A stretch of DNA of 64,000 nt from positions 47,183,022 through 47,247,021 of the forward strand of contig OZ018408.1 of assembly GCA_963969595.1 (NCBI GenBank), written 5' to 3'. The notes under the pieces are model-generated. The model was not told the origin of the DNA. It saw nothing but the letters and a program-made list of their open reading frames with translations, and ran no database searches. Shown piece after piece: positions 1,477 through 48,628 of this stretch; position 1 is the first letter of the stretch; every line of letters begins with the position of its first letter. Both the position numbers and the translations under genes were made by a program. The stretch comes from Neckera pumila. Lineage: Eukaryota; Streptophyta; Bryopsida; Hypnales; Neckeraceae.

Positions 1477-2409
1477 TTAACCCCTAAAGGACCGAGGTGA
1501 TTTTCCTACCAAAAACCATTCAAAACTGTCATTTCTATTGCAAAGAGAAAAGAGTTTAAAAAATTGTTCTTTTTTGTATATCCAACCGTAAGATCTTATA
1601 CTTGACTAGTATATAAATATGTGGAAGAAATTTCAGAAACTTTGACCACGTAGATTGCAAGATACATGCATTTAAAGTGAAAAAAACAAGTTTTTTTCCA
1701 CCTTGCTTGACTAGATTTTTTGGCTTTGAATCTTTTTAGTTCAAATTTTTTGCACTACTGATTTTGATTTTCTACTTATTTATGTTAAGTAGTTGAGTCG
1801 AGAATCTACCAAAAAAATTTAGGAAAGAAAGCACTTAATTTTCACTCATTAAAAAATTGTTAAGTAGAGGTGGGTACAAGATTGAAGAAAAAACTAAATT
1901 GTTAATAGCTCTTGGATGGAATTCAAGCACAATAATCCCAACGGTGAGATTGTTTTAGAAAGAACATCTAACCCTATCTAACCAAAAAATTTAAAAAATT
2001 CTCAAAATTACATTCAAAAATGAATTCTACAAGTTATTTTTTCAAGAAGATGCTTAGATTGCCCGAAAAACTAAGATTGTCCATAACTTTCTCATTACTA
2101 GTCCAAATTGAATGGAACAAAGCTTCACATGTAGACAAAAATATAATCTTTGAGGAAAAAATTTGAAAAAAAATTATTTTGACTTTTTGTGATTTTTTTT
2201 GGGCTGCCCGCAAAATTCCAATTTTACTTATTGTGCCATAACTTTTTCTCCCGGGCATCAATTAAAATAAAAATTATATATTCGCAAAGATCTCGCAAAG
2301 ATACACAACCTCAAAAAATCCCAAAAAATATTACTAAAAATTGAGATCGTAGGAACCTGCCCGGACCCAAATTGTCCCCCGAGGGGACAACCGGTCCTTT
2401 AGGGGTTAA
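1477..2409 (-). mobile_element. piggyBac-like non-autonomous element, subfamily A1
   Basis: TTAA at both ends encloses perfect 13-base terminal inverted repeats, CCCCTAAAGGACC and GGTCCTTTAGGGG. Length is 933 bases with TTAA. The interior is AT-rich and has no long ORF. Close to the right end lies a near-perfect palindrome, TTGTCCCC-cga-GGGGACAA (about 2373-2392), which recurs at the same end of the other A1 copies. The left subterminal part carries the shared block around CAAAACTGTCATTTCTA. Strand is set so that the hairpin end is the 5' end. TTAA target plus a 13-base repeat starting with C's fits piggyBac; no transposase is present. Confidence 0.88.
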
Positions 2410-3920
2410 GCAGAATAGTTTGCTGTAGTTGTCTTCAATTCCTGCCGTCGTTATAATTATGCCGACTCTTTGCAATTGTTGGTGTGCATTCCACACCAAT
2501 GTACGGGGAGTACCGGCATTTAGTTACAAGTTAGCCGGTTGGAATCAGGAATTGCCGAATCGATTTCAAAATCTTCAGAAAAAAACCGATCATTTAAGAG
2601 GAAAATCAAAAAATATTCTCTATTTTTCAAAGGCCTAGCCAAGAGAATGCTTCAAACAACCGGTTGCTCTAAGAAAATGTAGGATTTTAGCAGGTTGTAC
2701 TAAAAAACTCCCCGGACTGTGTTCCACACCCCATGGATGAGACTGAACTAATATTAAATGGGTTTAAGAATGACATGGAGCTGTAAAATTTATGAGTGAA
2801 ACTCTAAACCTCAGAAGAAAAGGATTGATTAATTGTGACGGCTAACATAAACCTGACATGAAATTTGTTGTTCGCACTCAAGTGTGCAGAGCCGCAGATT
2901 GACATGACCTTCAAGGCTCCCAACAGTACAAAACCGAGATTGATGTTTGGATGAAGTTTAGACGACAATCACACTTTGAAATGAGTGGTTTTGAAATTAC
3001 TAACTGTTGAATAGATTGTATTTAAATCTGCACTAACACAGACATATTGCAATGCAACATTGAACTTAGGAGAATATGGATTGAATAACCGTTTGAAGTC
3101 TTCTTGAATTGAATGAAAAACATTGGGGATGATAAGATAAAACATTTGGGATGAAAACGTGACCATATTTGTGACAACAAGTTGTGACAAGGGTTGTGAC
3201 AGTCTATATTTAATATAATATATGAATATCACCATATAAGTGCACCTTGAAATTTCATGTGATTTCAAAACTAGTGCTTAATACTCCTGTTATTACTCCA
3301 AGGTGCTCCAATTAACTAATTGAGGTTGAAGTGATAAAGACAAAAGAGCGGCTTTTATATATTATTTGGCAATGAGTGGTTTTCCATTATTTATTGTTGC
3401 AAGTCATTAACTCCATTGAGCCGCTTTGTTCCTTTTAATTGGCTCTTTGAAAAGATGTTTCCTCCAACAACTATCTAACTCAAAATTGGGTATGGTTTTA
3501 ACATGGATTATGTACTGTAATTTGAAAGCAGAGCCTTGCTTTGGAGAATCACATTCTAAGCCATGAAAGTTGCAAGGGATTTTCTTTCCATCACGAGGTT
3601 GTATTTTCATGTTAATTACCATATAGGATTTTAATGGGGCTTGGATCCAACTGGATTTCAATTGTTATAAAATTGAAGGTGTCTTCACCCATTAAGGTCA
3701 AAGAAGTCCATGTTTCATTTCATATTTCATTCACATCTTTGAAGAATTATTATATAAATCTAATTTCTTCAAATATATATTACATAAAAGTTGAAACGAA
3801 CTCTTGAAATATTCAAGAAATTGTTTAGACACAGAAGACTTATTTGGCGGAAATTTGATGGCAATGTGATGTTTTTTGTCCACATTAGGATCTAAGAAGA
3901 TATGCAAGGCACTTAGACTA
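2410..3920. other. AT-rich intergenic DNA, no gene seen
   Basis: Short open frames exist on both strands, but none resembles a known protein, has splice support, or shows coding composition. I see no repeat shared with the rest of the window here. Confidence 0.5.
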
Positions 3921-4164
3921 TTAACCCCTGAGTGCCCAACTCATGAGAAGACCAAAACAGGGAAGTTGCCACTCAAATTGCCGCCACAAATTGAGTATCG
4001 AGATCCTATGAAGTTGACCATAAGAATTGGTAGAAAAAATTTAGAGTTGAAAATATGGACCGATTGTAATTCACCATATATCCAAGAAGATTATAACAAT
4101 CAATTGTCCTTTGTTTTCTAATTACACACAACAGGATCCTGTCGCTTGGGCGCTCAAGGATTGA
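3921..4164. mobile_element. Small degraded TTAA element
   Basis: Left end TTAACCCCTGAGTGCCCAA. The right end reads TTGGGCGCTCAAGGATTGA, an imperfect inverted match in which the last TTAA has become TTGA. Length is 244 bases. The terminal repeat resembles that of the 15639 and 34871 elements (CCCCTAAATGCCCAAGG). The 81-residue open frame crossing it looks fortuitous. Confidence 0.6.
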
Positions 4165-4328
4165 TAGAATTCTTCTTGGCTTTTTAGTTTAAGAATAATT
4201 TTGCAACTTGTAAGATTTAGAAAAAATAGAAAATAAAATAAAAATTAGTTTATTAACATTTATCCTTACTCAACAGGTTTCTATTTGACAATTTGTAGTG
4301 AGATTAAAACTTCACCTACATCAAAAAG

Positions 4329-4361
4329 ATAAAAAAAAACAAAAAAAAACAAAAAAAAACT
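4329..4361. repeat. A9C simple repeat
   Basis: Three successive runs of about nine A separated by single C, just left of the element at 4421. Confidence 0.8.
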
Positions 4362-4420
4362 ACGCCCTTAAAAGAGTTCCAAAGTTTTAAAAGCTTGAGT
4401 TTAAAGAACAATTTGGAAAT

Positions 4421-5354
4421 TTAACCCCTAAAGGACCATTTGTTCCCTCGGGGGACAACTTGGGTCCGGGTAGGTTCCTATTGTCTCAAATTTTAGTGAT
4501 GTATTTTGGGATTTTTTGAAGTTGTGTATTTTTGCAAGACTTTGTGAAAATATAATTTTTATTTTAATTGATACCCGGGAGCAAAAGTTATGGTACAATA
4601 AGCAAAAGTGAAGTTTGGCGTGCAACACAAAAAAAATCACAGAAAGCCAAAATAAATTTTTTTTTCAAATGTTTTTCTCAAAGGTTATATTTTTGTCTAC
4701 ATGTGAAGCTTTGTTTCATTCAATTTGGACTAGTAATGAGAAAGTTATGGACAATCTTAGTTTTCCGGGCAATCTAAGCATCTTCTTGAAAAAAGAACTT
4801 GTAGAATTCATTTTTGAATGCAATTTTTAGCATTTTTCAAAAAAAATTGTTATACAAAGTTAGATTTTTTTGCTAGAACAACCTTACCATTGCAATTATT
4901 GTGATTCAATTCCATTTAAAAGCTATTAACAATTTCGTTTTTTCTTCAATCTTGAACCCACCTCTACTTAACAATTTTTTAATGATTGAAATTTAAATGT
5001 CTTTTTTCCTAAATTTTTTTGGTAGATTCTGAATTCAATTACTTAACATAAATAAGTAGAGAATCAAAATCAGTAGTGCAAAAAATTTGAACTAATAAGA
5101 TTCAAAGCCAAAAAATATAGTCAAGCAAGGTGCAAAAAAACTTATTTTCTTCACTTTAAATGCATATATCCTGCAATTTATATGGTCAAAGTTTTTGAAA
5201 TTTCTTCCACGTATTTACATAATAGTCAAATATGAGATCTTATAGTTAGTTATGCAAAAAATAACAATTTTTAAAGTTATTTTCTCTTTGCAGTAGAAAT
5301 GATAGTTTTGAGTGGCTTTTGATAGGAAAATCACCTTAGTCCTTTAGGAGTTAA
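4421..5354 (+). mobile_element. piggyBac-like non-autonomous element, subfamily A1
   Basis: Starts TTAACCCCTAAAGGACC and ends AGTCCTTTAGGAGTTAA (two mismatches in the right repeat). Length 934. The hairpin end is on the left (TTGTTCCCTCGGGGGACAA). The interior aligns, in reverse, with 1477-2409, for example the shared stretch GAAGCTTTGTTTCATTCAAT at about 4707. No coding capacity. Confidence 0.87.
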
Positions 5355-12990: not shown

Positions 12991-13922
12991 TTAACCCCTA
13001 AAGGACCAACATGCATTTTTTGGCCGTATAGAAATTTTGGGCAGGTACGTGTGACTAGAGATATCCATATTTGAGGCTGAAATTTTAATAGAAGGTGGGG
13101 GCAGGGAATATATTCATGTGTACCAAGTTTCATGACATTTTGAAATACAAGTCAAAAGTTGTGACCTGATATGTTACTTTTTTTCGTAACCGGGCAATTT
13201 GGGCAGATCAGAAAAAATCATTTTTTCCGGAATTTTTTTTTTGAAATTGGTTTTCTACCTTTATATAGAATTAAAAAGCTTTGATTCATTCCATTTCAAT
13301 CAATGAGTCAAAAGTTATGAGGGTTTTTGGTTTGCGGGCAGTTATGAATTCTCTACTCTAGAAAAAACTTTAAAGTCGTTTGTTTAACTCAATTTTCAAT
13401 ATTTTTGGAAAAAAATAAAATCCTAGGATGTGGATTGATTATTACAACATTACAACCGTTGGGATTGGCATTTTTAAATTCCATGATTAAATTTTTAAAA
13501 ATTTAGTATTTTGAGTCATTTTCTACTTCTTTCTACTTACTATTTTTTTCCTATATGTTGTACAATTCCAAATGATGTGAAATTTTTCATGCATATAGAC
13601 AACTTGTTTAGGAAACTGAATTCAAAGAAGCACCACCTTTATTGGCATTTTTTCATTGAAAAGTGAGCCTGCAAAGTGCAGCTGCCCGTTTTTTTGCAGG
13701 ATTGAAAAAATGGTTTTCAAGATTTTGAATGCTTATATCTTATGATCCACACAGTGGAATTTTTTGAAATTTTTACCACATGTTTTCAAAATATCATACT
13801 ACAAGATCCTATGGTTACATGTGTCAAAAATTGTTTTTTTCCAAAAATTTGGTAGTTGTATTAGAAATGGCAGTTTTGGAGCGTTTTTGGTGATTACATA
13901 GTCATGAAACTTTAGGGGTTAA
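12991..13922 (+). mobile_element. piggyBac-like non-autonomous element, subfamily A2
   Basis: Left end TTAACCCCTAAAGGACC, right end ctttaggggTTAA; length 932. The right repeat is intact for the outer 9 bases and then diverges. The interior differs from A1 at the left end (AACATGCATTTTTTGGCC) but shares the other half (GGCAGTTTTGGAG and CAAGATCCTATGG blocks). It matches 47702-48628 in the opposite orientation. Confidence 0.86.
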
Positions 13923-15638: not shown

Positions 15639-16284
15639 TTAACCCCTAAATGCCCAAGGCACCAAAATCTGGTGTTTGCAAAACTTTGAAGTTAAATATA
15701 ACCTAATCAAGTTGCTATTTTTAGTAGTTTATATTTTTAGAAAGTTCTTCTTGAAGTCTAGTTTTAGCACCAAAAATCCAATCTTGAAGATAAATGATAG
15801 TGATTTTTCTATTCAAGTTTTTGTACAAGGGTACCCATTGCAATCTTGACTTCCCGTAGTGTTGAGAGCTCTTGAAAATGAGCCTCAAATACACTAGATC
15901 TTGGAGAAAAAATCCCATTCAGAATTCATTTAAAAAAATTGTAGAGTAGATTTTAAAAAGCCATAAATTGATTGGGGTTATACAAGTTAGGCCTTTTAAC
16001 CTCATATTTTTTTGGTCACCAGCTTTTTAGACATGACTTATTTAAAGAAGATTGAAAGATTTCTGCAGTTTCAGCACCCTCATGGTCAAATATTATAATC
16101 TTTCACTCCATAAGTGATATTGTTGTGTTTTCTTTTCCTATAAGATCTCTAACATGTCTAGTTTGAATTTGTACGGTTACAATTCAAAAAAAACTAATAC
16201 AACTTATCAAAATGTTGACATTTTGTTCAATTTAGAGCAAAATTTCAGAGAGCCCAAAACAAACCTTGGGCATTTAGGGGTTAA
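15639..16284 (+). mobile_element. piggyBac-like non-autonomous element, subfamily B
   Basis: TTAA plus perfect terminal inverted repeats CCCCTAAATGCCCAAGG and CCTTGGGCATTTAGGGG; length 646. The interior is unrelated to A1/A2 but closely matches the nested copy at 34871-35478 (shared GTTTGCAAAACTTTGAAGTT near the left end). Open frames inside are short and not conserved between the copies. Confidence 0.88.
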
Positions 16285-28291: not shown

Positions 28292-28521
28292 TTAACCCTT
28301 GAAGGACGGACTGGTAGCCATGGAAATCATGTATTGTGATTCCGTGTGACATCATCTACTTTGAAAAAGCCTAATATATTCATTGGAAGTCAAAGAATTG
28401 TTGTTGATCTTTCCTTCCCACTCCTAATACCGAGGATGAAAAGATGCACTTCTGTCCTGTAGGGAAAGATTCTTTATCATTCAAAGGACGCAAAACGTCC
28501 TCGTCGGCGTTTAAGGGTTAA
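28292..28521. mobile_element. Small TTAA element, diverged terminal repeats
   Basis: Left end TTAACCCTTGAAGGACGG, right end gtCGGCGTTTAAGGGTTAA; 230 bases. The termini match imperfectly in inverted orientation but keep TTAA and the CCCTT start. It may be an old relative of the larger family. Confidence 0.55.
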
Positions 28522-29545: not shown

Positions 29546-31975
29546 ATGTTGATGAATGAAGCTCCAAAGTGTGCAGATGGGGACCCGGCTGGTGCTTGGA
29601 TTGACATGTTGGTAAGTGCACTGTCTCCGCTGTTTGAAGCTTTGACAAATTCGTTTGAGCAAAATTAAGTGAGTGACTTGTTTTGTGATCATGGACGTCA
29701 TTGCCGACTATTGGTTTTTTCTATAGAAGCTGTTAGAAACAGAGTCTCTGTTGCGGAGTTTTCCAAACTGTGAGCACAAGGTGTCGTAGGTTTGAAAGCT
29801 ATTTGAACTCAAATCAGATGCATCTGATTGTAAACTACACCATGCGGTTGTAGTCCTTGTCCCTTGCGGTGAGATTTACGACTCAAAACTAGTAGATTTC
29901 GTGATGAGGAAGTTTTTTTAGTTTTGTAAAATTTTGTAAACTGCTAGAATGCTGAATTCCTGTCGAGGGATCATTTCTTATATGAGAAGCTTGATATCAT
30001 CAAGCAATGTGATAACCTTCAGTTTAAGAAGCTGAGAAACCGGCAAGGCTCTAATACGAATAGGTTTAGTCATGGTGTCACTTGTCCTTGTCCTTTGAGG
30101 CTTGACGTGGGACTGGAGACGAACAGCCTCTAAATTAACGTAAACCTCAAAAAAAGTTGGAGTTATATATTTCTCCCTTGACAGATTTGCCCATAAATTG
30201 CATGACCATTGTACATCCCTTACCTTTTCTTCCAAACACGAAGTTTTCAAACTGGAACAATGGGCGTGCATGTATGATATACGATGATCCCCTTTGGATA
30301 CATCTTCCTGTTTTAGAATCCCTGTTAGTTTTACAACCCCTCATACCTCAACTGAGTGACTAAAACTCTGAGAGATGAACAAGCATAAGTACTCAGAGTT
30401 TACTATTCAGTTTTCCGAAAGGTATACCTTGTGTCCTTTTGCAAAATTCAAAGAGCTTCACCTTTTACATTGGACGCACTGACCTTAACGATTTCTTCAT
30501 TTTCTTGCAGTATTATTCATGCACAGAAACTATGGAGCCAGGGCCGTTTCCAAAGTGTGAGACAGTAAGCATCCAATCCACCTTGACAAGATCTCAATCC
30601 CAAGTTCTTGAGTTTTTGAACGGTGCTTCAGTATTTGACTGCCCTTCCACCCCTTCCTGCTCTCCTCCAGCTCTCGTGAACAGCCAGTTACCACAGCCAC
30701 CAGTGATGCACCCCAACTTGGTGTGCACTCTCAAGTCCATTTTGTCTCCGAGTGCAACAGACGGGGACAGCCAGAGCTCCACTTCTGGCGACAGTTACAG
30801 CAGGTGCGCACAATCAGGCATCTCAGACATGGCCGAAGGGCAAGAAGGATCGGAAATGAGAGCGGATTGCTCGGCTAAGGAAAGCTCACCTGAAAGCACG
30901 TCGTGGCCAAGGAACAGAAACTCGAAGCAGGTAACTGGGATACAGGTTAGAACTCCAGATTTCCGGATTGCAGTAGTGTTGTAGTTTATAATTCCGGAAA
31001 TCTTGAACTTTTAAATTCATATTTTTTGGTTGATCAAATGTGTCACACAAAGGATTGATATCTTCATTGACCGTTCACCAAGAGAGTTGCCTCACAACCC
31101 GGACTAGGCATGCTAACATAACAAGGTTGTGCTTTCCCAGTCATTGCAGCAAGAAGCCGTGATGGTGCCCCTCGACTGGATCCACAACAGGCGGCCATAC
31201 CAGTGCGCATTCCAGGGGTGCCAGAGGACGTTCAAGAACCCGCAGACCATGAGAATGCACCACAAAACGCATTTCAATGACGCCAGTGCTGCTGCAGCAG
31301 CAACAAAACTGGAGCCTGCTACAGCAGAAACAGTGCTGTTTACTGGCTCGACCATCAAGGCAGGGCACAACAAGAAGATCCCGGCACGCTGCCCCGCTTG
31401 CTGCAAGACGTTCGTGGGCTTGTACGAGCTTCGCAGGCACTTCGGACGCAAGCACTCGGAGGGCGAGAAGCGGCACGCCTGCCGGAAATGTGCGAAGAGG
31501 TACGTGGTCGCAAATTTTTCTCAGTAATGACAAAGTTTTGTGCAACATTTGTACTCCGTAGAAAACTAGTCATGTGTTGGCAGTTGGAAACCTCATTACA
31601 TTAACTCCTTCAGTAGACACTTGTCTATCTTGCTCTTTGATGGCGCAATGTTGGTGCATCTGTCTTTGCTTATCTTTTGAGTAAACAAGTGTTTGACAAT
31701 TGTGCATAAAGTATTTTGCCTCTGGATTATTATTGAGGTGAGCCTTGCTGAAAAAAATTGTGTCCTTGCTAATTTGATTAATGAAAGTTGGGTTCAGGTT
31801 CCATATTGAGGTGGACGTGCGAGACCATGAGAAGTTGTGTGGGGAGCCCATTGTTTGCTCAGGCTGTGGCATGAAGTTTGCGTTTAAGTGTAACCTTGTT
31901 GCGCACAAGCGCAGTCGTCATCCGGTATGCCAAGTTGATATGGAGGAGGATAAAGAACAATTCAAACATCAATAG
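29546..31975 (+). CDS. C2H2 zinc-finger protein, four fingers
   Basis: Exons 29546-29611, 30511-30930, 31141-31499 and 31798-31975; 340 residues with all joins in frame. The short first exon (MLMNEAPKCADGDPAGAWID) ends at a strong donor (gtaagt) and joins in phase to exon 2; without it translation could start at 30532. The N-terminal half is Ser/Pro-rich and acidic. Fingers: C184-C189-H202-H206, C246-C249-H262-H267, C276-C279-H292-C296 (C2HC) and C302-C305-H318-H323. The third and fourth fingers (DVRDHEKLCG then VCSGCGMKF) resemble the distal fingers of the plant STOP1/WIP transcription-factor group, so nuclear DNA binding is likely; the target is unknown. The last intron holds the left breakpoint of the tandem duplication (31510), so the final exon is also present as broken copies at 44.3 and 53.3 kb. 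This copy is intact. Confidence 0.8.
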
Positions 31976-33837: not shown

Positions 33838-34208
33838 TTAATCCTTCAAGGACCAAGAGTCTCCTCAATTGTTTTTTGGAACTTTTTTTGAAGATAAGAA
33901 AACACATATGAATTTGGAGAATATAATCTTTTTTCTCTTGGTGCTCGAAAGCAAAAGTTTTGCCACCCTTTGCCAAGAACAGAGGTTGGCGGAAAGCACA
34001 AAAAAAATCACAAAAGGCAAAATAAAATTTTCAAATTTTGTTTATTTTCTTTACATATAAAGCTTTTATTCATTCTATTTGGACTAGTGATGAGAAAGTT
34101 ATATAACAATCTTGTTTTTTTGGCAATCTAAGCATTTTCTTGAAAAAATGACTTTAGTTATAGGATTTAGTTCTAAATGCAATTTGCATAGTTTTTCAAA
34201 AAAATTGT

Positions 34209-35743
34209 CTAACCTTTAAAAGCCCATTGTCCCTATGGGAGACAAATGGGATTTTGGGCAGGTACCTATGGGCTGAGTTTTTGTTATGATTTTTTGAAAA
34301 TGTTTTAGAAGATAGAAAATTTGCTAAGCTTTGTGGGAATATGATTAACTTTTCAAAATGGTGCTTGGAAAAAAATGTCATGTCCAAATAAGCTCAAAGC
34401 AGGGGACAAGGGGCATCAAAAGAAAATTTGCATTTTTATTTTTTATTTTTTTTTATTTTTTTTAATAGACTATATTTTTGTCTATCTATAAATATTTGAT
34501 TCATTTTATTTTGATTTTTATGAGAAAGTTATAGACAACCTTGTTTTTTGGGCACTTAAAGCATTTTTTTTGAAAAAAAATAATTTGTAGGATTCATTGT
34601 TTGAATGCAATTTTTACAATTCTTCAAAAAAAAGTTCTACAAGGTTTAGTTTTTTTGCTAGAACAATCTCACCATTTGGATTAGTGTTTTTTAGTCCCAT
34701 ATAAAAAATACTAATATTTCAGATTTTCCTTACATCTTATACCTACTTCTACTTAACAATTTTTTTAATAATGAAAATTAAGTTTCTGTGGATTTTTCTT
34801 TCCCCCTAGATTCTCAACTCAATTCTCTACTATATAGATTTAAAGCTTAAAACTCTGTAGTGGAAAAAATTTAACCCCTAAATGCCCAAGGTAACCAAAT
34901 TTGGTGTTTGCAAAACTTTGAAGTTAAAAACCTAATGAAGTTGCTATTTTTAGAAAGTTCTTCTTGAAGTTTGATTTTAGCATCAAAAATACGATCTTAA
35001 AAATAAATGATAATGATTTTTCTATGCAAGTTTTTCTACAAGGGTACCCATTGCAATCTTGACTTCTCATTGTGTTAAGAGCTCTTGGAAATGAGCCTTA
35101 AATACACTAGATCTTGGGGAAAAATTCACATTAAAAAAAATTGTGATTTTGAGAAGTCATAAAATGATGGGGGTTATACAAGTTAGGCCCTTTAAATTCA
35201 AATTTTTTTGTCACCAACTTTTTAGATTTGACTTGTATAAAGAAGATTGAAAGATTTCAGCAGTTTTAGCACCCTCATGGTCAAACATTATAATCTTTCA
35301 CTCCATAAGCAATATTGTTGTATTTTCTTTTCCTATGAGATCTCTAGCATGTCCAATTTGAATTTGTATGGTTACAGTTCAAAAATAATTGATACAACTT
35401 ATCAAAATGTTGGCATTTTTTTCAATTTAGAGAAAATTCCACGAAGCCAAAAATAGACCTTGGGCATTTAGGGGTTAAGTTAAAAATGTTCAAAGTCATA
35501 AAATCTAGTCCCACAATGTGATGAAAAACTTGTTTTTTTTCACTTTAAATGCAAATATCTTGAAATCCATGCGGTCAAAAATTCTGAAATTTTTTCCACA
35601 CATTTTTATACTAATTAGGTATAGGATCCTATGGTTTGATGTGCAGGAAAAAACATTTGTCAATTTTATTTACTCTTTGCTATAAAAATGACAGTTTTGA
35701 GTGATTTTTCGCAGAAAAAAGGCCTTGGGCCTTTGGCGGTTAA
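34209..35743 (+). mobile_element. A1 element (middle), itself interrupted
   Basis: Left end CTAACCTTTAAAAGCCC (TTAA mutated to CTAA), with hairpin CCATTGTCCC-tat-GGGAGACAAATGG. Right end GGGCCTTTGGCGGTTAA. Without the inner element it is about 931 bases, the standard A1 length. The matching position in unit 2 (46484-46487) is an unoccupied single TTAA. Confidence 0.8.
34871..35478 (+). mobile_element. Subfamily B element (innermost)
   Basis: TTAA with terminal repeats CCCCTAAATGCCCAAGG and CCTTGGGCATTTAGGGG; 608 bases, closely similar to 15639-16284. The uninterrupted A1 copy at 43389-44322 has a single TTAA (43654-43657, read in reverse) at the equivalent point. Confidence 0.88.
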
Positions 35744-36390
35744 TAGGGTTAAATTTGCTTTCTACAATCTTCTAACAATTGAAATAATTGAATTCCAATT
35801 CCTTCTTAGAGCCATTAATGATGTAGTTTTTTGTTCAATCTTACACCAACTTCTAAAAACAATTTTTTAAAGAATGAAAATTATGTCTGTTTTTAAGTAA
35901 AAGTTTTAAAAATCTCAACTCAATTTTCTAATATAAATTTTTTGAATTCAAAGTTTATGGTGCAAAGAATTTCTATAGATAGAAGTCAAATTCATTTGAA
36001 ATTGCATATTAGCGTTCAATAATACTTTCTTCCAACTTTATATGAATTCAAAGTTGAACGCTATTATCTTCCGATATGTATAGTCAAACTTTATAAACTT
36101 TTTATTACATGATTTGAAACAAGAATGAAGTACAAGATCCAACAATTAGATTCTAACGGGGATTCTAAAACAAATATTTTTTCTATTTTCTTGGATAAAA
36201 GTAGCAAAGTATCAGTTTTGAGTGGTTTTTGATAGAAAAATAGCTTAGTCCTTTACGTATCAATAGTATGATTGGTTCTAAACATTTCATGTACTTCCTT
36301 GAAATACATAGTTTAGAAACATTTGTGAAGCAATTTTTCTAAAGTTTTCATTATGAAAGGCCTTTGAATAAGATGTTGCGCTCAACTTGT

Positions 36391-37175
36391 ATTATGCTGA
36401 TATAAACATTCAATTCCACTGAAATCATTTTTTTGGCTTTGCAAAGAATAGAGCAGCTGCACTTCACAAGCTCACTTTTTGATAAAAAAATGTCCAAAAT
36501 GATGGTGATTATTTGGATTATTTTTTCTAAATAAGTTGGCTGCATGCTTGAAAATTTTCACTTCATTTGCTAAAAAATATATAAAGGAAAAAAATAGTAA
36601 GTAGATAGTAGTAGAGAATGATTCAAAATACTATACAGTCAAGAATTTAATTATGGAATTGAAAATTGTCAATTCCAATGGTTGCAATGTTGTAATAAAT
36701 AATCTATATCTTATGATTTTATGATTTTCAAAAAATATTGAAAATTGAGTAAGATAAAGGACTTCAAAGTTTATTTTAGAGTGGAAAATCCATAACTGCC
36801 CAAAAATTAAAAATCTTCATAACTATGGCCACATTGATCAAAATGCGATGATTCAAAGCTTTCCACACACACACACACACACACATACATATGTCCTTAG
36901 AAGACCAATTTCAATTTGTTTTTTTGAAAAAAGTGATTTTTTCTATCTGCCCGGACTGCCAAGTTACACAAAAAAACATTAATAAATGTGTGCCCACTTA
37001 CATATTAGGCCATAAGTTTTGACTCACATTTCCAAATGTCATGAAATTTGGTGTATATGAAAGATATTCCTCGTCTCCACATTCATGGGCTAAAAATATA
37101 GAAATCTTGTAGTCACACGTACTTGCCCAAAATTTCTATATAGCAAAAAATGCATGTTGGGACTTTAGGGATTAA
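36391..37175 (-). mobile_element. A2 element, left end deleted
   Basis: The right end gcatgttgggactttagggaTTAA matches the 48.6-kb copy. The left part, including its terminal repeat, is missing: the sequence jumps from DNA equivalent to 47.1 kb to interior equivalent to 47.82 kb. It contains the CA microsatellite. Confidence 0.78.
36863..36886. repeat. (CA)n microsatellite
   Basis: About eleven CA units inside the truncated A2 element; absent from the 48.3-kb copy. Confidence 0.9.
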
Positions 37176-38398
37176 TAGAAGGAATGATTGAAGCACTTAG
37201 GATTATTCTTGTATATTTGAAAATTCAAACATTCATATATTTTTCCCTTGTGAAATAATACACACTTAATAAACTAATTGAGTTTTACTTCAGTAAATCA
37301 TTCTAAACCATTTGTGCATTAAATAATCTATTTCTTAAATTGAGTCTTTAATCTACAAAGTTCACAATTATTTTGACATTATGGATCAATCTAATACAAT
37401 CATAGATCAATCTAAAATTTTCTTTTGATTTGAAAACTTTTTGCCACTTAAAAGTAAAGGTTAATTAATCTAAGAAAAAATATCATGTTATTTTAATCTA
37501 TATCTCTGAAATGATTTTATACAACCAAAGTGCAAAATACCAAAACAAATAGCCTTAAACAAACAATTCCAAAAATCAAAACTACCACAATTTTTCAAAA
37601 GCAACTAATAAGAGGCATGGGTTTTTTAAAGTCAACAATAAAAGTTGAGACATTTCTCATTCAATGGTGTCTATTCAAGGCGAGCCTCGTATTAAGTACA
37701 AGCTACCTTACGTTTTTAACTCTTAAAATTTATAAAATATTATATAAATATAAAATATTGAAAAATTATGAAACTTATTGGGTTGCATTTTTCTTGAATT
37801 TGGTAATAGCTTCATCAATTTTTTCCATCGATAGAACTTTGAGGGATAGGACTAAAAAAAGTGCCTCTTCTACTTGATGTTACCTTAACCTTGGAAGGAC
37901 AAATGCTCATTATAACTGTGGAATTTGTCTCAAGCTTTTTCTCTTTGTTTCTTCTACATTTTAGCAAAATTTGAGTGAGAATTCTTTTATTTTAGTTTTC
38001 AAAGGTGAAATCACATGTCTTTTGTAAGTCATAATTTCCAATTGCAAATTGAGCTTCATTTCATTAGTTGGGTTCAAATTCCAAAATGATCATTTATATG
38101 GCTCAAATTCAAATGAAGAGCAAGGAGAGAATAGTTGACAAAATCTACTAGAAGGACTTTCTTTGTGATATGTGGAACACTAAATTCCTCATTTAGTAAA
38201 CTCTTGGACGCCTCCAGTGTATGATATAACAAGAAGAATCTTTTCTCCCAACCCCCAAAAACTCAATGAAAATATGTTGTTTTTACATCCTCCAACAATT
38301 TTTATTTATTTATCATTTGAACTCCTCTGGCGTTCAAGGTTAATACCCATGTGATTTTGTTTCTATGTAGAATATGTGACCTTGTGAAGATGGTGCAT
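37176..38398. other. Duplicated noncoding DNA
   Basis: Present also at about 48629-50050 (direct) and about 26.57-27.49 kb (inverted). The 115-codon open frame at 37530-37877 is not kept intact in the other copies. Confidence 0.6.
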
Positions 38399-39332
38399 TT
38401 AACCCCTAAAGTCCCATTGTCCCTACGGGGGACAAAATGGATTTCGGGCAAGTTCCTATGAGCTGAAATTCTCTCCTGATTTTTTGAAACTTTTTTTGAA
38501 GATAAGAAAACTGTTGAGCTCTGTGGGATTATAATTTTTTTCAAAATTGGTGCCCAGGAAAAAAAATTATGACCAAATAAGCTCAAAACAACGGACGGCG
38601 AGCAAGCTAGGCAGCAAACAAAAATTGGACAAAAATTTGAATTTTTTTTTTTATACTTTTTTTCTTATAGATTATATTTTTGTCTATTTGGAAAGCTTGA
38701 TTCATTTCATTGCGATTTGTTATGAGAAAGTTATGGACATTCTTGTTTTTTGGACAATTAGAGCATCTTCTTGAAAAAAATAACTTTTAGGATGCATTTC
38801 TGAATGCAATTTTTAAATTTTTTAGTTTTTTTTTCTTTGCATGGTTTATATTACAAGCTAGAACAATCTTACCATTGGGATTAGTGCATTTTAATTTCAT
38901 CTAAAATATATGAATATTTTAGATTTTCCTTCTATCTTGTATCTATTTCTACTTAACAATTTTTTACAAAATGATAATGAAGTTTCTTTGAATTTTTTTT
39001 TCCTTAGACTCTCAACTTAATTTTCCACTACAAAGATTTAAAGCTCAAAACTCTATAGTGCAAAAATTTTCAAGTTAAAAATGTTCAAAGTCAAAATCTA
39101 GTCCTGCAATGTGCTGAAAAACTTGCTTTTTTCACTTTAAACGCAGATATCTTGCAATCTGTGCGGTCAAAAACTCTGAAATTTTTTCCACACACTCTTA
39201 TACTAGTTAGGTGTAAGATCCTATGTTGAGATGTGAAAAAAAAACATTTAAATTTATTTTTGCTTTTTGCTATAGAAATGGCAGTTTTGAGTCATTTTGA
39301 CAAGAAAATGGCCTTGGGACTTTAGGTGTTAA
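38399..39332 (+). mobile_element. piggyBac-like non-autonomous element, subfamily A1
   Basis: Left end TTAACCCCTAAAGTCCC with hairpin CCATTGTCCC-taC-GGGGGACAA; right end GGGACTTTAGGTGTTAA; 934 bases. The inverted duplicate near 26572 has the same flanks around one TTAA and no element. Confidence 0.9.
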
Positions 39333-41746
39333 ACCTAATACCCAATGGGTTTTGTTGCAGAAATTTGGTGGAAAATTGCACCAAATTCTATGGCCTCGCA
39401 ACACGACCATAGAGAAAGGTGGAAAAAGGTACTAAAAAGGTGGAAAATTGCCAAAAATCTTCAAATAAAAATGAAAATAAAAAACCTACTAATACCGTGC
39501 TTTTCCAGTTGAGGTGAAATTCAAGGAGCTCTAGGGTTGGAAATGGTTACAATATCGTTTGTTGGATAGACCGTGGCTTGGGGTATGCAACGAGACTGAG
39601 AAATTGCAATGTTCATCACGTTCTAAGTAGAGGAATTGCAATTAGTGAAGACCTCTTTTTATTTTCCGTAATTGGGCAGGTCCAAAATTACTGAAACTAC
39701 TATCCTACATGTGCGTAGAGCATGACATGGAAATTTGTGGAATTTTGAAAAACTTGAGAACAGAGATTGATCACTTGTGAATGAAAGAGAACATCTTGCT
39801 CAAATCAAGTGGCATTTGCTGAAATAAGACCTTGATTTCGAAAATGAGATAGAATTTCAAACACACGGTCAAGCACATTCTTATCTGCATGCATTAGGTT
39901 TGGGTAGGGTGCATGATTCTCAGGATCGCTACAACACCATCTTCATTGCACTTTCTGAGAAAAATAAGTAAGTAAGAAAACAATGTAAGTTTAGCAAAGT
40001 TCACATCCTGACGACAAACCAAAAACATTGTCTTCGCACTATAGGTTCAAAAGAAATAGACCGAAATCTACACCCTGCCCAAGAAAACAGAATCGAATTG
40101 GGTCGATGATGTTTCCGCTACAAATTCTACTCGAACGGTGACTTGCTCAAGCAAATCCAATCCTAACAAAACATAATTGAATTGGGTCGAGGACATTTCA
40201 GCTAGAAATTCTACACGAACAGCGATGTTCACAAGCAAATCCAATCAGAGCGCAATCAGGAAACAAATCTACCCTACAGCAAACCCTAGAGTTTATCCAC
40301 AGCAAACCCTAAACCGCCGGAGGAAACATACCAGTGAAATTCGTGGTGGATGAATCCAGCGGCAGCAATTAAACGTCGGGTCCAAAACTTCCACCAAATC
40401 AGTTAAGTTTGTAACCTAAGGCAACCTGTCAAAACCAATCGCTGATGCTAACAATAATATTTCCTTGCCGTCAATAGAGAATAGGGAACTGAAGCAAATT
40501 TATCCAAATGAGGTCGGTGCAGAGAGAGAGGAAGTGCGCATACAAGGTAAGAAGTGAAAAGCAAGGATATAAAACGCAAGGCTTCCGACACCGATGTACC
40601 TCACTGCGATCAAGTCCCAAAACTATGGCCGATTGAACAAAGAAGCTTCACAACTCAATAGGTCACAACCTGAAAATGCAAAAGAAAAATTTATGAAAGT
40701 CGAATGTGCATGAGTCTGATTCCAACTTATCCATCTTACAAAGCAGTCAACAATATAGGATGCCACACGCCATGACAGACTCTACATCGCTTGTTACTTC
40801 GTACGGCCAGAGCTTTAACAAATGAGGAGCAGTTTCTTAGCTCAAAGAGAATACAATCACTCCAACAGAGCAGCATTATTGACAATTTAGTATCGTGCAG
40901 CCAAATACCGTAAGGGGAGGCCAAAGAACTGCGGCAACCATGCGCAATTCACGACCTCTCTTGGCAACCATTATAAGCCGCTCCAAACCTAAAAACGCTC
41001 CAAACCCTAAGATTTCTGTAGACCTCTACGTACGATCTCCGCTGAGAATCATTCAATTTTCGACGTCAATTGAGTGATCTTCAAAGGCCGACGTTGAGAT
41101 TTCCCGAACTCTTGAAACCAGTCGATCATGAATGAGAAACAGAGCAGGTCGAAGGAACGACGGCCACAAAAAATCCACTGCATCCATTCTCCGGATCTCA
41201 TCCAAATACTTTCATCCAAATAGTCATATGGCCAATTAGGGGTTTCCTTCCCTAGACGCTTGTGCAGTCTGTCGAGGATATGTATGTTTCGGAGCTTTGC
41301 TGCTGCGTGGGACAGTGCTCTTTTTTGAGTACAGTTAGCGCCCATGGATCGAGTCATTGAGTTCATTTCCTTGTCGTGGTGAAGATTACTCAGTCGGTGG
41401 GTCTTTCCAAATCTCGAATTGGTGTGCGTGTTGTCGGGGCGGAGCATCCAAGGTTTTAGGGTTTCATTTTAGAACGTTAGCTTACTGATTCTCCTAGATA
41501 TGCAGTTTTCGGGACCGTGGCTGGTGCAAGTGCATATTGAAATGTCTGGATGCCTATGTAGAAGGTCACAGTGTAGGCTTCGAAGGCTTTGAGTTATTGG
41601 GGTATCAACAGTGCTTCCAATTTGCAGTACACACGAAATTAAACCAGGAACTGTCCCAAATGGCCGTTTCTAGACCTGAACTCAAGGCAAAGTGAAAACT
41701 CAACTCAACTCAACTCAACTCAAGCCTACGATACGAAAGTGAAAAC
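39333..41746. other. Duplicated noncoding region upstream of NOG1 fragment
   Basis: Aligns in reverse with 21.8-26.5 kb. Rich in AAACCCTAA-type motifs (for example about 40275-40315 and 41000), as in plant 5' flanks of ribosome-biogenesis genes. A (CAACT)n run of about five units lies at 41698-41723. No intact gene. Confidence 0.55.
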
Positions 41747-41859
41747 GTGAAACCGAACAATTGCAACGACGGGGGAAACCCCGATTTGCCGGAACGCAAG
41801 CACGTCAAACGAGCGGTGACTCGCAAAGCTTGCCCTCCCGAAACAACATCCCAGCTGGT

Positions 41860-42421
41860 GTGCACGAGCCAGCCTCGATGGATCGACTTTTCCTTGTCGT
41901 TCCGTCTCGATTGTGGCTTCACCATTGCCCAGCAAGTACGTAGCGCTGTTTCATTCCATCAAAATGCTGTTCGCCAACAAACCAGTGATCATCGCCTGCA
42001 ACATGACCGATTTGCAGCCCTTCCAGAGTCTGATAGGAAGCTTATTGAGGAGATCAGGAGAGAAGCTGCTAGAATTGGAGCAGGCCTCGTCGACGGTGTT
42101 CCGCCTGATGAGGAGAAGTGCATGTTGGCCATGATCGAGTACTATGACAGAGGAGGGCATTATCATGTCAAGAATGCTGCATGTGAGAAGTTGCTGGAGA
42201 TGCGTGTGGACGTACCTGAAGATGAAATCAAAGAAGATCAACGATTGTCTGAATCGAATTCACGTGGCTGTGCCAAAACTGCGGGACCAGAAAGAACGTC
42301 GTCCTGTTATTCCCCAGGCAGTTCTCGACGCCAAGGCTGCTGTGAACAAGAGGGAACTGGAGAAAGATCTTGAGAACGAGAATGGTGGTGCAGGTCCGTC
42401 AGTTTCACAACTATTTGGATA
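41860..42421 (+). pseudogene. NOG1 GTPase fragment, copy 1
   Basis: Pieces of nucleolar GTP-binding protein 1 are spread over three frames: CGFTIAQQ, then LFHSIKMLFANKPVIIACN-MTDLQPF (G4 region, NKTD changed to NMTD), SDRKLIEEIRREAARIGAG, MTEEGII, VKNAACEKLLEMRVDV and KMKSKKINDCLNRIHVAVPK through KDLENENGGAG. At least four frameshifts separate them, including a 4-base insertion relative to copy 2 after CAGCAAGTA. The G1-G3 half of the GTPase is absent. NOG1 acts in nucleolar 60S assembly; this copy cannot encode it. The 208-codon open frame at 41747-42373 is a mosaic of correct and wrong frames. Confidence 0.85.
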
Positions 42422-43120
42422 GAAATGTTGATAGTGTTTTCGTCCATTTTGGCATGATTTCTATGCAAGCCAAATGCATCCATTGGTGTTTTTCTGAGAC
42501 AGCATGCGTTTGGTTTTCAGGTATGACATCAACGCCTGATGAGTGCGTGTTTGTGTGGATGTGTGCTAAGACAGGAGATTTTAGTCACTCGCACTGCTGC
42601 AAGTAGGTTAATCATTCGTGAGATTTTAATTTCCTTGCGTTTCGTCATTCGCCTTGCGCTTCTTTCTGACGTCGTCGGAGCTTTCATTAAGGCCATGCTC
42701 GAGATAGAGTAGTAGCAGCAGCAGTTGAAGATCTCACGATTTCACAAACAAATCGATCCTATGGAAATGCATGTTCGTTATTAACTACGTACGATCGTGG
42801 TGGACAGGTGCGCAACTCTCTGTATCGTGCGTTTTGTTCATCTGGAGGGTTCGGGGATTGTGGGAGGAGGCTTCAGGCCCCCATTCCATTCCATTTGCTA
42901 TCCCTCCATGGAGGAGAGAGGAGTCTTGCGAGGACCCCGTTGCTTGCTCTTTGGAGCAGCCGTCGCTTTGAAGAGGAACAAAGGTCCCCTTTTATAGTGG
43001 GTTCAGGGTTCTGGCCGGCTTGGCCCCTACGCAACGTATTCCATGTTTTGGCCAATGAGGAGCAGGCAACGCCAGGTCAATGAGCAGGTTTGACCAATGA
43101 GCAGGTGGTGAATGTTTTTG
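42422..43120. other. 3' flank of NOG1 fragment, duplicated
   Basis: Nearly identical to about 52332-53015. Short overlapping frames occur on both strands, none with a recognisable domain; they are conserved only because the DNA is recently duplicated. Confidence 0.55.
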
Positions 43121-43388
43121 GCAAATTTTTCTTCAGTTTGGCATAGTTTTGTGCAAAATTTGTTTTCCGAGTATAAAAGTAGTCCTGTGGTTGCAATTGG
43201 AAACCTCATTAAATTAGCTGCTTTAGTAGATACTTGTCTATCTTGCTCATTGATGGCACAATGTTGGTGCATCTATCATTGCCCGTTTGTTGAATATGTG
43301 AATGTTTGACAATTGTAAAGTATTTTGCTTTTGGATTATTGTTTTGAGGTGAGCCTTGCTGAAAAAAGTTGTGTCCGTGCTAATTTGA

Positions 43389-44322
43389 TTAACCCCTAAA
43401 GGACCGAGGCCCTTTTTTTGCCAAAAAATACTCAAAACTGCCATTTCTATGGCAAAAAGTTAAAAAATCTGAAAAGTGTTTTTCTTCCCACTTCTAACTG
43501 TAGGATCTTACACCTAACTAGTATGAGAGTGTGTGGAAAAGATTTCAAAATTTTTAACTGCATCGATTGCAAGATATCTGCGTTTAAAGTGAAAAAATCA
43601 AGTTTTTCATCACATTGGGGGACTAGATTTTTTGACTTTGAACATTTTTAACTTTAAATTTTTGCACTATAGTGTTTTGAGCTTTTAATGTTTATAGTGG
43701 AGAATTGAGTTGAGAATCTAGCCAAAAAATAAAAAATAAAAAAAACTTAATTTTCATTATTTAAAAAATTATTAAGTAGAAGTAGATACGAGATAGAAGG
43801 AAAATCTAAAAAATTTGAATTTTTTAGGTGGGATTAAAATGCACTAATATCCTTGGTGAGTTTGTTCTAGCAAGTAAACTAAACCATGCCAAAAAAGAAA
43901 AATTGAAAAATTTGAAAAATTGCATTCTGAAATGAATCCTATAAATTATTTTTTTTCAAAAAGATGCTCTAACTGCCCAAAAAACAAGAATGTCCATAAT
44001 TTTCTCATACAAAATCCAAATGAAATGATTCAAAGCTTTCTAGATAGAAAAAAATATAATCTATGAGAAAAAAAATACTTGAAAAAAAAAATAAAAAATG
44101 TGCAAATTTTTTTTGCTGCCCGTCGTCCTTTGTTTTGAACTTATTTTGTCATAACTTTTGTTCCCAAGCACCGATTGTGAAAAGAATTATATTCCCATGA
44201 AGCTAATCAGCTTTCCTACCTCCCAAAAAAGTTTTAAAAAATCAGAAAAAAACTTGAGCCTGTCGGGACCTGCCCGAAAACGCATTTGTCCCTTGAAGGG
44301 ACAATGGTCCTTTAGAGGTTAA
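43389..44322 (-). mobile_element. piggyBac-like non-autonomous element, subfamily A1
   Basis: TTAACCCCTAAAGGACC on the left, GGTCCTTTAGAGGTTAA on the right (one mismatch); 934 bases. Hairpin end on the right: TTGTCCCTT-g-AAGGGACAA. It sits in the intron of the broken zinc-finger copy. Units 1 and 3 are unoccupied at the equivalent points (31778-31781 and about 53283-53286). Confidence 0.92.
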
Positions 44323-44337
44323 CGGAAACTGTGTTTA

Positions 44338-44512
44338 GGTTCCATATTGACGTGGATGTGTGAGACCATGAGAAGTTGTGTGGGGAGCCCAGTGTTTGCA
44401 TGAAATTTGCGTGTAAGTGTAACCTGGTTGCGCACATGCGCAGTCGTCATCCGGTATGCCAAGTTGATGTGGAGGAGAATAAAGAAAGACCATTCCAGTT
44501 CAAAAATCAATA
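44338..44512 (+). pseudogene. Broken copy of last zinc-finger exon (unit 2)
   Basis: Aligns with exon 31798-31975. The frame is interrupted by TGA in GATGTG-TGA (arginine codon CGA in the intact copy), and about 15 bases coding the first cysteine pair of finger 4 are missing. The other exons are not present in this unit. Confidence 0.88.
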
Positions 44513-46100
44513 GTACAACTTACAAGTGTTCTATTGAAAGCAGGGCAAGCTTCCCATCTGCACACATCACCTCTTTCTAGGGTCTGTAAGTTTCTTCGCT
44601 ACCAACATCTCCTACTCCATGTAATTTGTCTTGAAGTTGGAGGTTCCCTAGCTGAAGTGATTGCGTAATTGGTAACTCCAATTTGGAGCTTTGCTTTTGG
44701 AAAACCGAGTTCTATAATGCAGTGAAGAATGTAGTTTTGTAGAATTGGCTCCGATTTTGAGTTATAATGTGGAGAGCATGTTTAACTTCTTGACTCTCAG
44801 TTGAGTACTTGGCAATTGGTATGGATGTAAAGTATTAATTTGTTTTGCTGCAGATCTAATTGCTTCCTTCTGGCAGGGGTGTACTAATTGTATTTTTTCA
44901 ATCTATTGACCCTTCAGATCAGAGATGTGGGCTCCAAAAATTCACAATCTATAGTTAACCGGCAGTCAGCTTCCCCAAAATGGTGTGGTAACCAACATTT
45001 TAAAACGAAGTATGTCTTAACCACAATGGATCCGATTACCATAGAGGTGGCAGCGAAGCCTTAAATGTGGAGAGCATGTTTATATCTCGTAATATTGCCC
45101 ATTTTATTTAAGCATCCTAGTGCCCCTTAATTTCATGATTAACCTCGATTGAACAAGATTTGACCATTGAGGTTAAGTCTAGTAAGCAAGGTAGTGGAGC
45201 CTCCTTGTCTTGAAAATAACATCGCCTTGCCTCTTGCCAAAGGTTTGACATGTTGTCTCTCCTAACAAGGCTCTTTCTTTCATGTTTCCTGTTCATTTCT
45301 TGTACATTCTACACATATTATTCCTATGGAGTAGAAGCTAAACATAGCGCAGTGTAGATTATGATCAAGAGTTGAATGTAGTGAACACTTTCAATTCCCA
45401 AGTGGTTGACCAACAAATATATCAAAATTCAATGACACTTATCAAGTTAGATTCAATGTTTGTGTTGGTGAAAGATTTGTTGTCACAAAATAAATTTGTC
45501 ATCATTATAAATCAATGTTCTCCAAGGATTGTGCAATATTGAAGATACAGAACCGCAAAAAGAAGTGTACATTTTGGAGACTTGGGGTATTCCATTTGCC
45601 TTTTTTCAATTTTGATAAGGTAGGAGCACCCAATGGTGTCAGTGTACCTAATGGCATCAAATTTTATGTAAGGCATTGATTCTAGAACATAAATGTTGGT
45701 AGACTATAGATAGCTTATCATTAAGTTCAAGAAAAATAAGCTATCTACGGTCTACCTACACTTAAATTCTGAAATGGCACTCACATACAATATATTTTAT
45801 ACAATATGTTGATGCGGATATATAATATTAAGTAAATAGACCTCTATATAAAATGGATAAAATTGATGATTTTGTTGAAGGACAAACCCATGATGCTTTA
45901 CTATGCATAAGTTGCATTTTTACTCTTGAAATTATTTGAGAACAATAAAACTTATTTCCAATTTCTATAAACTTATAATTTTGCTTGAAAGTAATTTTAC
46001 AACATAATTGTTTGTAAATGCAAATTAGTGATTTAGGATATATTCTCTTAATTTGATACCTTCAAATATAGGAGTACATATCAAAATAAAAACATATGTC
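44513..46100. other. Duplicated flank, no gene seen
   Basis: Copy of about 31976-33837 with small deletions, including loss of about 300 bases equivalent to 32845-33090. Confidence 0.6.
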
Positions 46101-46988
46101 TTAATCCCTAAAGGACCATGATTCTCCTCAATTTCTTTTTGGAACTTTTTTTTTGAAGATAAGAGAACACATACAAATTTGGGGAATATAATCTTTTTTT
46201 CCTTAGTGCTCAAAAGCAAAAGTTATGCCATCCTTTGCCAGAAACAAAGTTGGCAGAAAGCACCAAAAAAATCACAAAGAATTAGAATAAGATTTTCAAA
46301 TTTTGTTCCTCAAATACTTTATTTTCTTTACGTATAAAGCTTTTATTCATTCTATTTGAACTAGTGATGAGAAAGTTATGTAACAATCTTGTTTTTTTGG
46401 CAATCTAAGCATTTTCTTGAAAGAATGACTTTAGTTATAGGATCCATTTTTGAAGGCATCTTTCACAATTTTCAGAAAATGGTTTAATAGGGTTAAATTT
46501 GTATTCTAGAATCTTCTAACAATTGAAATAATTGTATTCCAATTCCTTCTTAGAGTCATTAACGATGGAGTTTCTTGTTTGATCATAAGTAATTTTTTAA
46601 AGAATGAAAATCATGTTTGTTTTTACAAAAAAGTTCTAAAAATCTCAATCCAATTTTGTAATATAAACTTTATGATATTCAAAGTTTATGGTGCAAAAAG
46701 TTTCTATAAATGATGGCGAAACTCATTTGAAATTGCAGATTAGCGTTCAATAACACTTTTTCTCTAACTTTAGATGAATTCAAAGTTGAACGCTATTATC
46801 ATCCAATACGTGTCACCAAACTTTATAAAAATTTTACTATATAATTTGAAACAAGTGAAGTACTCCTATAGTTACATGTGAACATACATTTAAAAAAAAT
46901 ATGTTTTCTATTTTCTTGGATGAATGTGGCAAAGTGGCAATTTTGAGTGGTTTTTGATACAAAAATGGCTTTGTCCTTTATATATTAA
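46101..46988 (+). mobile_element. A1 element, old copy without nested insertion
   Basis: Left end TTAATCCCTAAAGGACC, right end TGTCCTTTATATATTAA; 888 bases. It is the same ancestral insertion as 33838-36263. It carries the single TTAA (46484-46487) that is occupied in unit 1. Confidence 0.82.
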
Positions 46989-47701
46989 TGGTATAAATGT
47001 TTTGACCATTTCATGTACTTTTTTCAAATACATATTTTAAAAAAATTTGTAAAGCAAATTTCCTAAAGTTTTGGTTATGAAAGGCCTTTGAATAAAATGT
47101 CGCCTTCAACTTATGTCTATAGATTCTTTTTTTTTTATAGATAATAATTGGTAGAAGATTATAGGATAAATATATAGGTCTTACTTTACATCCCATCAAA
47201 CAAATGAACAACGGATGAAAGGCATCTAATAAACAAATAGTTCAAAATCCGGAACATGACAATGAATATTCCAAACCCTATTTTTTCTAAATGAAGCCCG
47301 ATTGGTTAGAAGCTTCAATGGGAGCCTCTTCAAATTGTACATTCTTGCTACACAAGAATCTCTCGTGTACTAAACCTGTAATAAAGATATCATCAAGCAA
47401 GTGGTATTGTAGATTACTATCACCCTAGATCATCTTGCAAATGCTCCAATTTTGAACCCTATAAATTATTCTATTTGCTTGCTCATTTGACTAACTTTAC
47501 CACAATTAAGTTTTATGGTTCCAAATTTTGCACCTCAAAATTTGCTAGGGTTGTAGATTCATTTATTTTTAATCTATCTTAAGAAAATAGAAGATTATAC
47601 TAAAATAATAATTTGTATTCATTACAATTAAAAAGAAATTAAAAATTTAGACCAAAATAAAAATACAATTGTTTTTTGTCTATGATATGATTTTGAATGA
47701 C
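46989..47701. other. Duplicated noncoding DNA, absent from unit 1
   Basis: The distal part (about 47600-47701) aligns in reverse with 27490-27590. Unit 1 lacks most of this stretch, so the ancestral order is seen here. No gene recognised. Confidence 0.5.
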
Positions 47702-48628
47702 TTAACCCTAAAGTTCCCTGACTATATTTTCACCAAAAATGCTCAAATATGGCCATTTTTAGTACAAGTATCAAATTTTTGAAAAAAAGTTTTTTTAACA
47801 CACGCAACCATAGGATCTTGCATTATGCTGACTTGAGAACATGTAATAAAAATTTCAAAGTTTTCAACCACATGGATTGCAAGATATAAGCATTCAAATT
47901 CAATGAAATCATTTTTTTGGCTTGTCAAAAACAGGGCAGCTGCACTTCACAAGCTCACTTTTGATGAAAAAAAGTCCAAAACGATGGTGCTTCCTTAAAT
48001 TCTTTTTTCTAAATAAGTTGAATGCATGCTTGAAAACTTTCACTTCATTTGTTGAAAAATACATATAGGAAAAAATAGTAAGTAGATAGTAGTAGATAAT
48101 GATTCAAAATACAAAATTGTCAAGAATTTCATTATGGGATTAAAAATTGCCAATTCCAATGGTTGCAATGTTGTAATAAACGATCTATATCTTAAGATTT
48201 TATTTTTTTCAAAATTATTTGAAAATTGATTAAGATAAAGGACTTCAAAGTTTATTTAAGAGTAGAAAATCCATAACTACCCGCAAATTAAGAATCTTCA
48301 TAACTTGTGACATATTGATCAAAATGGGATGATGTGAAGCTTTCCATGTATATATAACTTTAGAAAACCAATTTCAAATTTTTGTTTTTGAAAAAAGTGA
48401 TTTTTTCTATCTGCCCGAACTGCCCAGTTACAAAAAGATGTAACATATTAGGCCATAATTTTTTATTCAAATTTCTAGATGTCATGAAATTGGGTGCATA
48501 TGAAAGATATTCCTCGTCCACACATTCAACCACAATTTGAGCTAAAAATATGGAAATCTTGTAGTCACACGTATTTGACCAAAATTTCTATGTAGCCATA
48601 AAACGCATGTTGGGTCTTTAGGGGTTAA
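47702..48628 (-). mobile_element. piggyBac-like non-autonomous element, subfamily A2
   Basis: Left end TTAACCCTAAAGTTCCC, right end GGTCTTTAGGGGTTAA; 927 bases. The right subterminal region (cataaaacgcatgttgg) is the reverse of the left end of 12991-13922. The inverted duplicate has a lone TTAA at 27488-27491 with matching flanks. Confidence 0.9.

Follow-up and report, generated by a model that had tools for sequence, protein, structure and literature searches.

TTAA-flanked, non-coding DNA transposons with piggyBac-like features in a 64-kb stretch of moss DNA

The window analyzed here, a stretch of 64,000 nucleotides (contig OZ018408.1, positions 47,183,022 to 47,247,021), contains a family of non-autonomous cut-and-paste DNA transposons of a moss, which integrate at the tetranucleotide TTAA and duplicate it. 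The elements account for about 18% of the window, have no coding capacity, and were inserted in several rounds with nesting three deep. Evidence for duplication of the TTAA target comes from two clean empty sites, and a third site is consistent with it; TTAA-specific cut-and-paste movement is well supported. The engine behind this movement was probably of the piggyBac type, as judged from the target, the tips, and the terminal inverted repeats (TIRs).

Ends of the TTAACCCCTAAA type occur 21 times in the whole window at no more than one mismatch (0.5 expected; none of 100 shuffles reached 21). BLAST and profile searches delimited a 930 class with nine near-complete copies of 888–934 bp, two of them split by nesting, and two partial copies. 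Long BLAST matches between copies are 56–88% identical; the profile was made from the 930-class copies and finds them again, so that members match by construction. The 610 class has two members (646 and 608 bp), which share the tip CCCCTAAA with the 930 class; BLAST similarity between the classes is confined to a single short terminal stretch. When all 446 TTAA sites were screened for pairs with 11/14 or more matching TIR positions at a spacing of 80–2600, 14 pairs emerged, seven of them real, namely, both 610-class elements and five of the 930 class (1477, 4421, 12991, 38399, and 43389). The remaining seven either arose by chance or combine the ends of two separate elements; in the control orientation, 2 of 8138 pairs passed. 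Three further pairs of 212–244 bp, which are probable elements, came from a search with looser end criteria. They are less secure, as TTAA was part of the search pattern and chance alone should yield many such loose matches (per 64 kb, about 34 at five mismatches and about 5 at four). The elements and one empty target are as follows.

1477..2409, plus strand: 930-class, 933 bp, perfect 13-bp TIR, TTAA on both flanks, 19-bp subterminal palindrome at the right end (8/9 pairs)
3921..4164, no strand assigned: probable small TTAA element, 244 bp, left TIR CCCCTGAGTGCCC, flanks TTAA/TTGA
4421..5354, minus strand: 930-class, 934 bp, TTAA on both flanks, 88% identity with 1477–2409
12991..13922, minus strand: 930-class, 12991/47702 subfamily, 932 bp, TTAA on both flanks
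15639..16284, plus strand: 610-class, 646 bp, perfect TIR CCCCTAAATGCCCA, TTAA on both flanks
28292..28521, no strand assigned: probable small TTAA element, 230 bp, tips CCCTTGAA/CCCTTAAA, TTAA on both flanks
31778..31781, no strand assigned: empty TTAA target (site A) in a paralogous segment, 4-bp overlap of two BLAST blocks
33838..36263, minus strand: 930-class, split by the nested 34209–35743, own length 895 bp, flanks TTAA/TCAA, paralogous counterpart of 46101–46988
34209..35743, minus strand: 930-class, nested in 33838–36263 and split by 34871–35478, 931 bp without the insert, flanks CTAA/TTAA
34871..35478, plus strand: 610-class, nested in 34209–35743, 608 bp, TTAA on both flanks
36399..37175, plus strand: partial 930-class, about the first 184 positions missing, right end TTAA, paralogous counterpart of 47702–48628
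38399..39332, minus strand: 930-class, 934 bp, TIR CCCCTAAAGTCCC, TTAA on both flanks
43389..44322, plus strand: 930-class, 934 bp, perfect 19-bp subterminal palindrome at the right end, A/T-rich 15-bp palindrome near the left end
46101..46988, minus strand: 930-class, 888 bp, TTAA on both flanks, holds the empty target TTAA 46484–46487
47702..48628, plus strand: 930-class, 12991/47702 subfamily, 927 bp, left tip CCCTAAAG, TTAA on both flanks
50056..50447, plus strand: partial 930-class, left flank TTTA, right limit approximate
62888..63099, no strand assigned: possible small TTAA element, 212 bp, TTAA on both flanks, beyond the part of the window covered by the first-pass annotation

Among the eight independent two-ended insertions of the 930 class, 15 of 16 ends are flanked by TTAA, the exception being the CTAA of 34209; the insertion shared by 46101 and 33838 was counted once and is represented by 46101. 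Inclusion of the one-ended 50056 changes the tally to 15/17. For all 14 two-ended elements listed, TTAA stands at 25 of 28 ends (exceptions TTGA, TCAA, and CTAA), a count in which the small elements were found with a TTAA-bearing pattern and 33838 and 46101 are two rows for one insertion. The sequence beyond the TTAA differs from copy to copy. The 930-class consensus has no stop-free stretch of more than 72 amino acids, and its conservation shows no clear period of three; an Rfam search gave no match, and viral_contigs held no exact match to TTAACCCCTAAAGGACC. The first-pass annotation had described at least eight near-complete copies of ~890–935 bp, two of ~610–645 bp, and several small relatives, all with TTAA flanks and short TIRs and lacking open reading frames (ORFs), and had proposed a tabulation of flanking 4-mers. 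These descriptions hold for both main classes, and the tabulation, run on the copies in the window, agrees with them; the small relatives are likely, on the weaker evidence of their search pattern.

The target site itself is visible where one copy of a paralogous sequence carries an element and another does not. At site A, the element 43389–44322 is absent from a paralogous segment, in which a lone TTAA (31778–31781) remains and the two flanking BLAST blocks overlap by exactly four bases. A third paralog (53.3 kb) has TAAA in this place, and the overlap amounts to two bases only. At site B, the insert 34209–35743 lies within 33838–36263; the counterpart 46101 has one TTAA (46484–46487), again with an exact 4-base overlap, and the insert is now flanked by CTAA on its left. 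Site C, the insertion of 34871–35478 into 34209–35743, is less clean: uninterrupted relatives read TTTAAAG (43389) and TTTTCAAG (38399), which fits TTAA. Seamless excision that restores TTAA characterizes piggyBac; pre-insertion and post-excision states are indistinguishable at empty sites within the window. The TTAA duplication claimed at first reading is supported by sites A and B, and site C agrees with it.

Two of the empty sites are supplied by a segmental duplication of a gene region, which comprises about 31510–41010, 41172–50584, and 51115–54014. Its non-element BLAST blocks are mostly 81–84% identical, with 92% for 41172–43392 versus 51115–53287, and its ORFs include a C2H2-like one (31129–31527, under the Pfam cut-off) and a NOG1-like one (51689–52096). 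At 33838–36263, the 608-bp element sits in a 930-class element, which in turn sits in a second 930-class element; this nesting gives a relative order of activity.

The string TTAA-CC...GG-TTAA is formally equal to T-TA-[ACC...GGT]-TA-A and might thus stem from Tc1/mariner-type elements with the TIR ACCCCTAAA, a TA duplication, and a mere preference for T-TA-A. Since the string is the same under both readings, empty sites alone cannot separate a TTAA from a TA duplication. Tc1-like elements do occur in a moss, as PpTc1 and PpTc2 of Physcomitrella are DNA transposons with TIRs, too (PMC4054914). They differ from the elements described here in the TA duplication, in coding capacity, in length (1,584 and 1,709 bp), and in their tips, which read CAGT and not ACCC. 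The outer bases also speak against a TA target: 27 of 28 complete TTAA (P ~9e-13 if they were free, with the shared insertion counted twice and pattern-found elements included), as do 15 of 16 in the less biased set (P ~4e-7). A Tc1/mariner origin is very improbable.

The TIRs are 13–14 bp long (CCCCTAAAGGACC, CCCCTAAAGTCCC, CCCCTAAATGCCC, and variants), and 1477, 15639, and 34871 show no mismatch over 14 bases. Twenty of the 28 ends start with CC and 25 with two pyrimidines. TTAA as target, TIRs of 12–19 bp, and a CC[C/T]T tip are hallmarks of piggyBac (PMC2872659); another source gives CCC as the first three bases and a target that is mostly TTAA, and remarks on isolation from plants (PMC10813416). 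The window elements thus resemble the piggyBac superfamily, including the elements of T. ni and piggyBat as well as the coral CMITEs, in the duplication of TTAA, in TIRs that start with CC and lie within the published length range, and in the occurrence of non-coding derivatives. Kolobok elements duplicate TTAA as well, but their tips are 5'-RR...YY-3', unlike those of piggyBac (PMC9587614) and unlike the pyrimidine-led ends found here. As far as the termini can tell, CC...GG tips and 13-bp TIRs are a better fit to piggyBac than to Kolobok, and we consider a Kolobok-type origin hardly credible.

The right TIR of one subgroup is followed inward, after 1–2 bp, by a 19-bp palindrome (TTGTCCC..GGGACAA). 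It is paired at 9/9 positions in 43389, 8/9 in 1477, 7/9 in 4421 and 38399, and 6/9 in 34209. When 20 element ends were compared with shuffled sequences, the palindrome stood out at the right ends of two elements, 43389 (p 0 of 300) and 1477 (p 0.003); no such 19-bp palindrome was apparent in 46101 or in the 12991/47702 subfamily. In both 610-class elements, a shorter palindrome is found near one end (p 0.05 and 0.15). The piggyBac element of T. ni has identical 19-bp palindromes at both ends at unequal distances, and piggyBat has palindromes at the left end only (PMC11707139). The palindromes described here, inside one end in one subgroup, recall these without matching them.

Several observations weigh against a piggyBac assignment. 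The strict tip CC[C/T]T is present at only 5 of the 28 ends and CCC at 16; the usual tip is CCCC. The 19-bp palindrome exceeds the shuffles at only 2 of the 20 ends, is imperfect in three relatives, and is unseen in the other five of the ten elements; the asymmetry is weakened by 43389, whose left end also stands out with an A/T-rich palindrome of 15 bp (p 0.007). A Pfam scan of 112 ORFs of the window matched 24 families, and no transposase, neither the DDD transposase of piggyBac (PF13843) nor any other, was among them. These ORFs were taken from 329 stop-to-stop ORFs of at least 55 amino acids, of which 323 passed a complexity filter and the longest 150 were retained; redundant or element-internal ones were then excluded by judgement. 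A profile of 34 piggyBac transposases, searched against the six frames of the window, reached a best E of 2.3, and tblastn a best E of 0.17; a relic of another superfamily outside the 112 ORFs would be missed by the Pfam and profile searches. Finally, a survey of miniature inverted-repeat transposable elements (MITEs) in 207 plant genomes, four of them bryophytes, treats five main superfamilies, and the available main text names neither piggyBac nor TTAA (PMC12550479). The window elements also differ from piggyBac and the CMITEs in their moss host and, apart from the small ones, in their size of 608–934 bp, which is long for MITEs.

The piggyBac profile itself derives from a piggyBac consensus, which as a query matched 1356 proteins. 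Among the best 120 of these 1356, most are nameless and the named ones are from animals; the 34 transposases were drawn from these 120. As only the closest matches were listed, this search is uninformative on mosses.

Both the lack of a transposase tied to these ends and the CCCC tip, which departs from the strict piggyBac motif, could be explained if a bryophyte lineage of TTAA-specific transposases outside piggyBac, Kolobok, and Sola, undescribed or poorly described so far, had mobilized the elements. We regard such a lineage as unlikely, because the visible features fit an existing superfamily and nothing demands a new one. Sola elements make 4-bp duplications, and within this group Sola3 is the sole branch known to be specific for TTAA. 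A Sola-type transposase of the Sola3 branch could produce the flanks seen here, and Sola elements are on record in moss. That record, from Physcomitrella, concerns Sola1 and not the TTAA-specific branch (plant transposable element review, PMC9033089); 4-bp AT-rich duplications are ascribed by one paper to Sola2 (further facts on TTAA and Sola: PMC5199201, PMC4455052, PMC3627910, and PMC8634313). The CC tips of the window elements, moreover, agree with those published for piggyBac, and Sola3 appears to be a slightly poorer candidate still than a new lineage.

A piggyBac-type engine remains the probable one on the strength of the TTAA duplication, the CC...GG tips, and the 13-bp TIRs, features on which the first-pass annotation had already based this proposal. 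As far as their visible parts go, the elements work like piggyBac, and piggyBac is our best guess for the engine. The family is not filed as piggyBac, because no transposase is tied to the ends and the strict tip motif is present at few of them. In the mechanism we envisage, a DDD transposase of the piggyBac type, supplied by an autonomous element elsewhere in the genome or in its ancestors, would bind the 13-bp ends, in one subgroup perhaps aided by the 19-bp palindrome on one side. It would excise the elements and insert them at TTAA through a joint staggered by 4 nt. The inner TIR bases differ between elements (AAGGACC, AAGTCCC, and AATGCCC), which suggests more than one transposase specificity.

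Despite strong sequence divergence, five copies that represent three subfamilies measure 932–934 bp. Compared with 1477, 4421, 38399, and 43389, the element 12991 has 36–45 insertions or deletions totaling 109–146 bp, with a net difference of −1 or −2 (random-walk standard deviation 22–28.5). Exceptions are 47702 (927 bp), 34209 (931 bp without its insert), and the 46101/33838 subfamily (888–895 bp). A constraint on length is at most hinted at by these unexplained figures, because alignments are uncertain at such divergence and the remark is post hoc.

The land-plant host presumed at first is a moss, because an LSG1-like GTPase encoded at 17638–18933 (minus strand) is, among named matches, most similar to that of Ceratodon purpureus. 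Among the best 120 of 7084 matches, this moss provides the best named one (84% identity); the top match overall has 96% identity, and matches in liverworts, Selaginella, ferns, and seed plants come next, at about 45–51%. A bryopsid placement is inferred. The first-pass annotation had considered piggyBac-type activity unusual for a land plant. This is softened by the PiggyBac row, next to one for Sola, in the repeat table of the C-fern (PMC6890710) and by the inclusion of PiggyBac among the MITE superfamilies of angiosperms in a review (PMC10004981). For mosses, no report of piggyBac or of TTAA MITEs was found among the entries listed from an open-licence library, where absence does not equal absence from print. 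The available text of a paper on transposable element expression in Physcomitrium does not contain the words piggyBac, MITE, or TTAA (PMC7466625), and a moss genome paper uses "piggyback" in another sense (PMC10619864).

A solitary end (TTAACCCCTAAGTGCCC, 59664–59680) without a convincing partner lies inside a host gene, probably in an intron. Pieces of a fasciclin domain on the minus strand stand on either side of it, at 60081–60395 (profile 5–38, just below the Pfam cut-off) and 59379–59636 (profile 83–121). Its combination with a loose partner at 62868–62884 into a 3.2-kb element of autonomous size was rejected, as the end lies among these pieces; neither the Pfam ORF scan nor the piggyBac profile search detected a transposase in 59664–62884. 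Interstitial TTTAGGG repeats, which we take to be of the plant telomere type, are located at 62198–62244. The element tip CCC(C)TAAA resembles this unit, exactly so in 47702 (TTAACCCTAAA), which is probably a coincidence.

A wider possibility, which we consider rather doubtful, is that TTAA-specific transposons have radiated deeply and diversified over a long time in mosses, with a transposase lineage of their own, and that their non-autonomous copies are nearly fixed at about 932 bp though widely diverged. If this were true, the near-fixed length would mean that end-to-end spacing matters for transposition. Animal genome engineering makes wide use of the piggyBac system. Little documentation of its natural range among land plants turned up in the literature searched. 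Mosses are a lineage in which gene targeting is easy. The TTAA elements of this moss together with their transposase, if one exists, would constitute a native target-specific system, with which it would be possible to test whether plant TTAA MITEs called piggyBac from flanks and tips alone truly belong to piggyBac.

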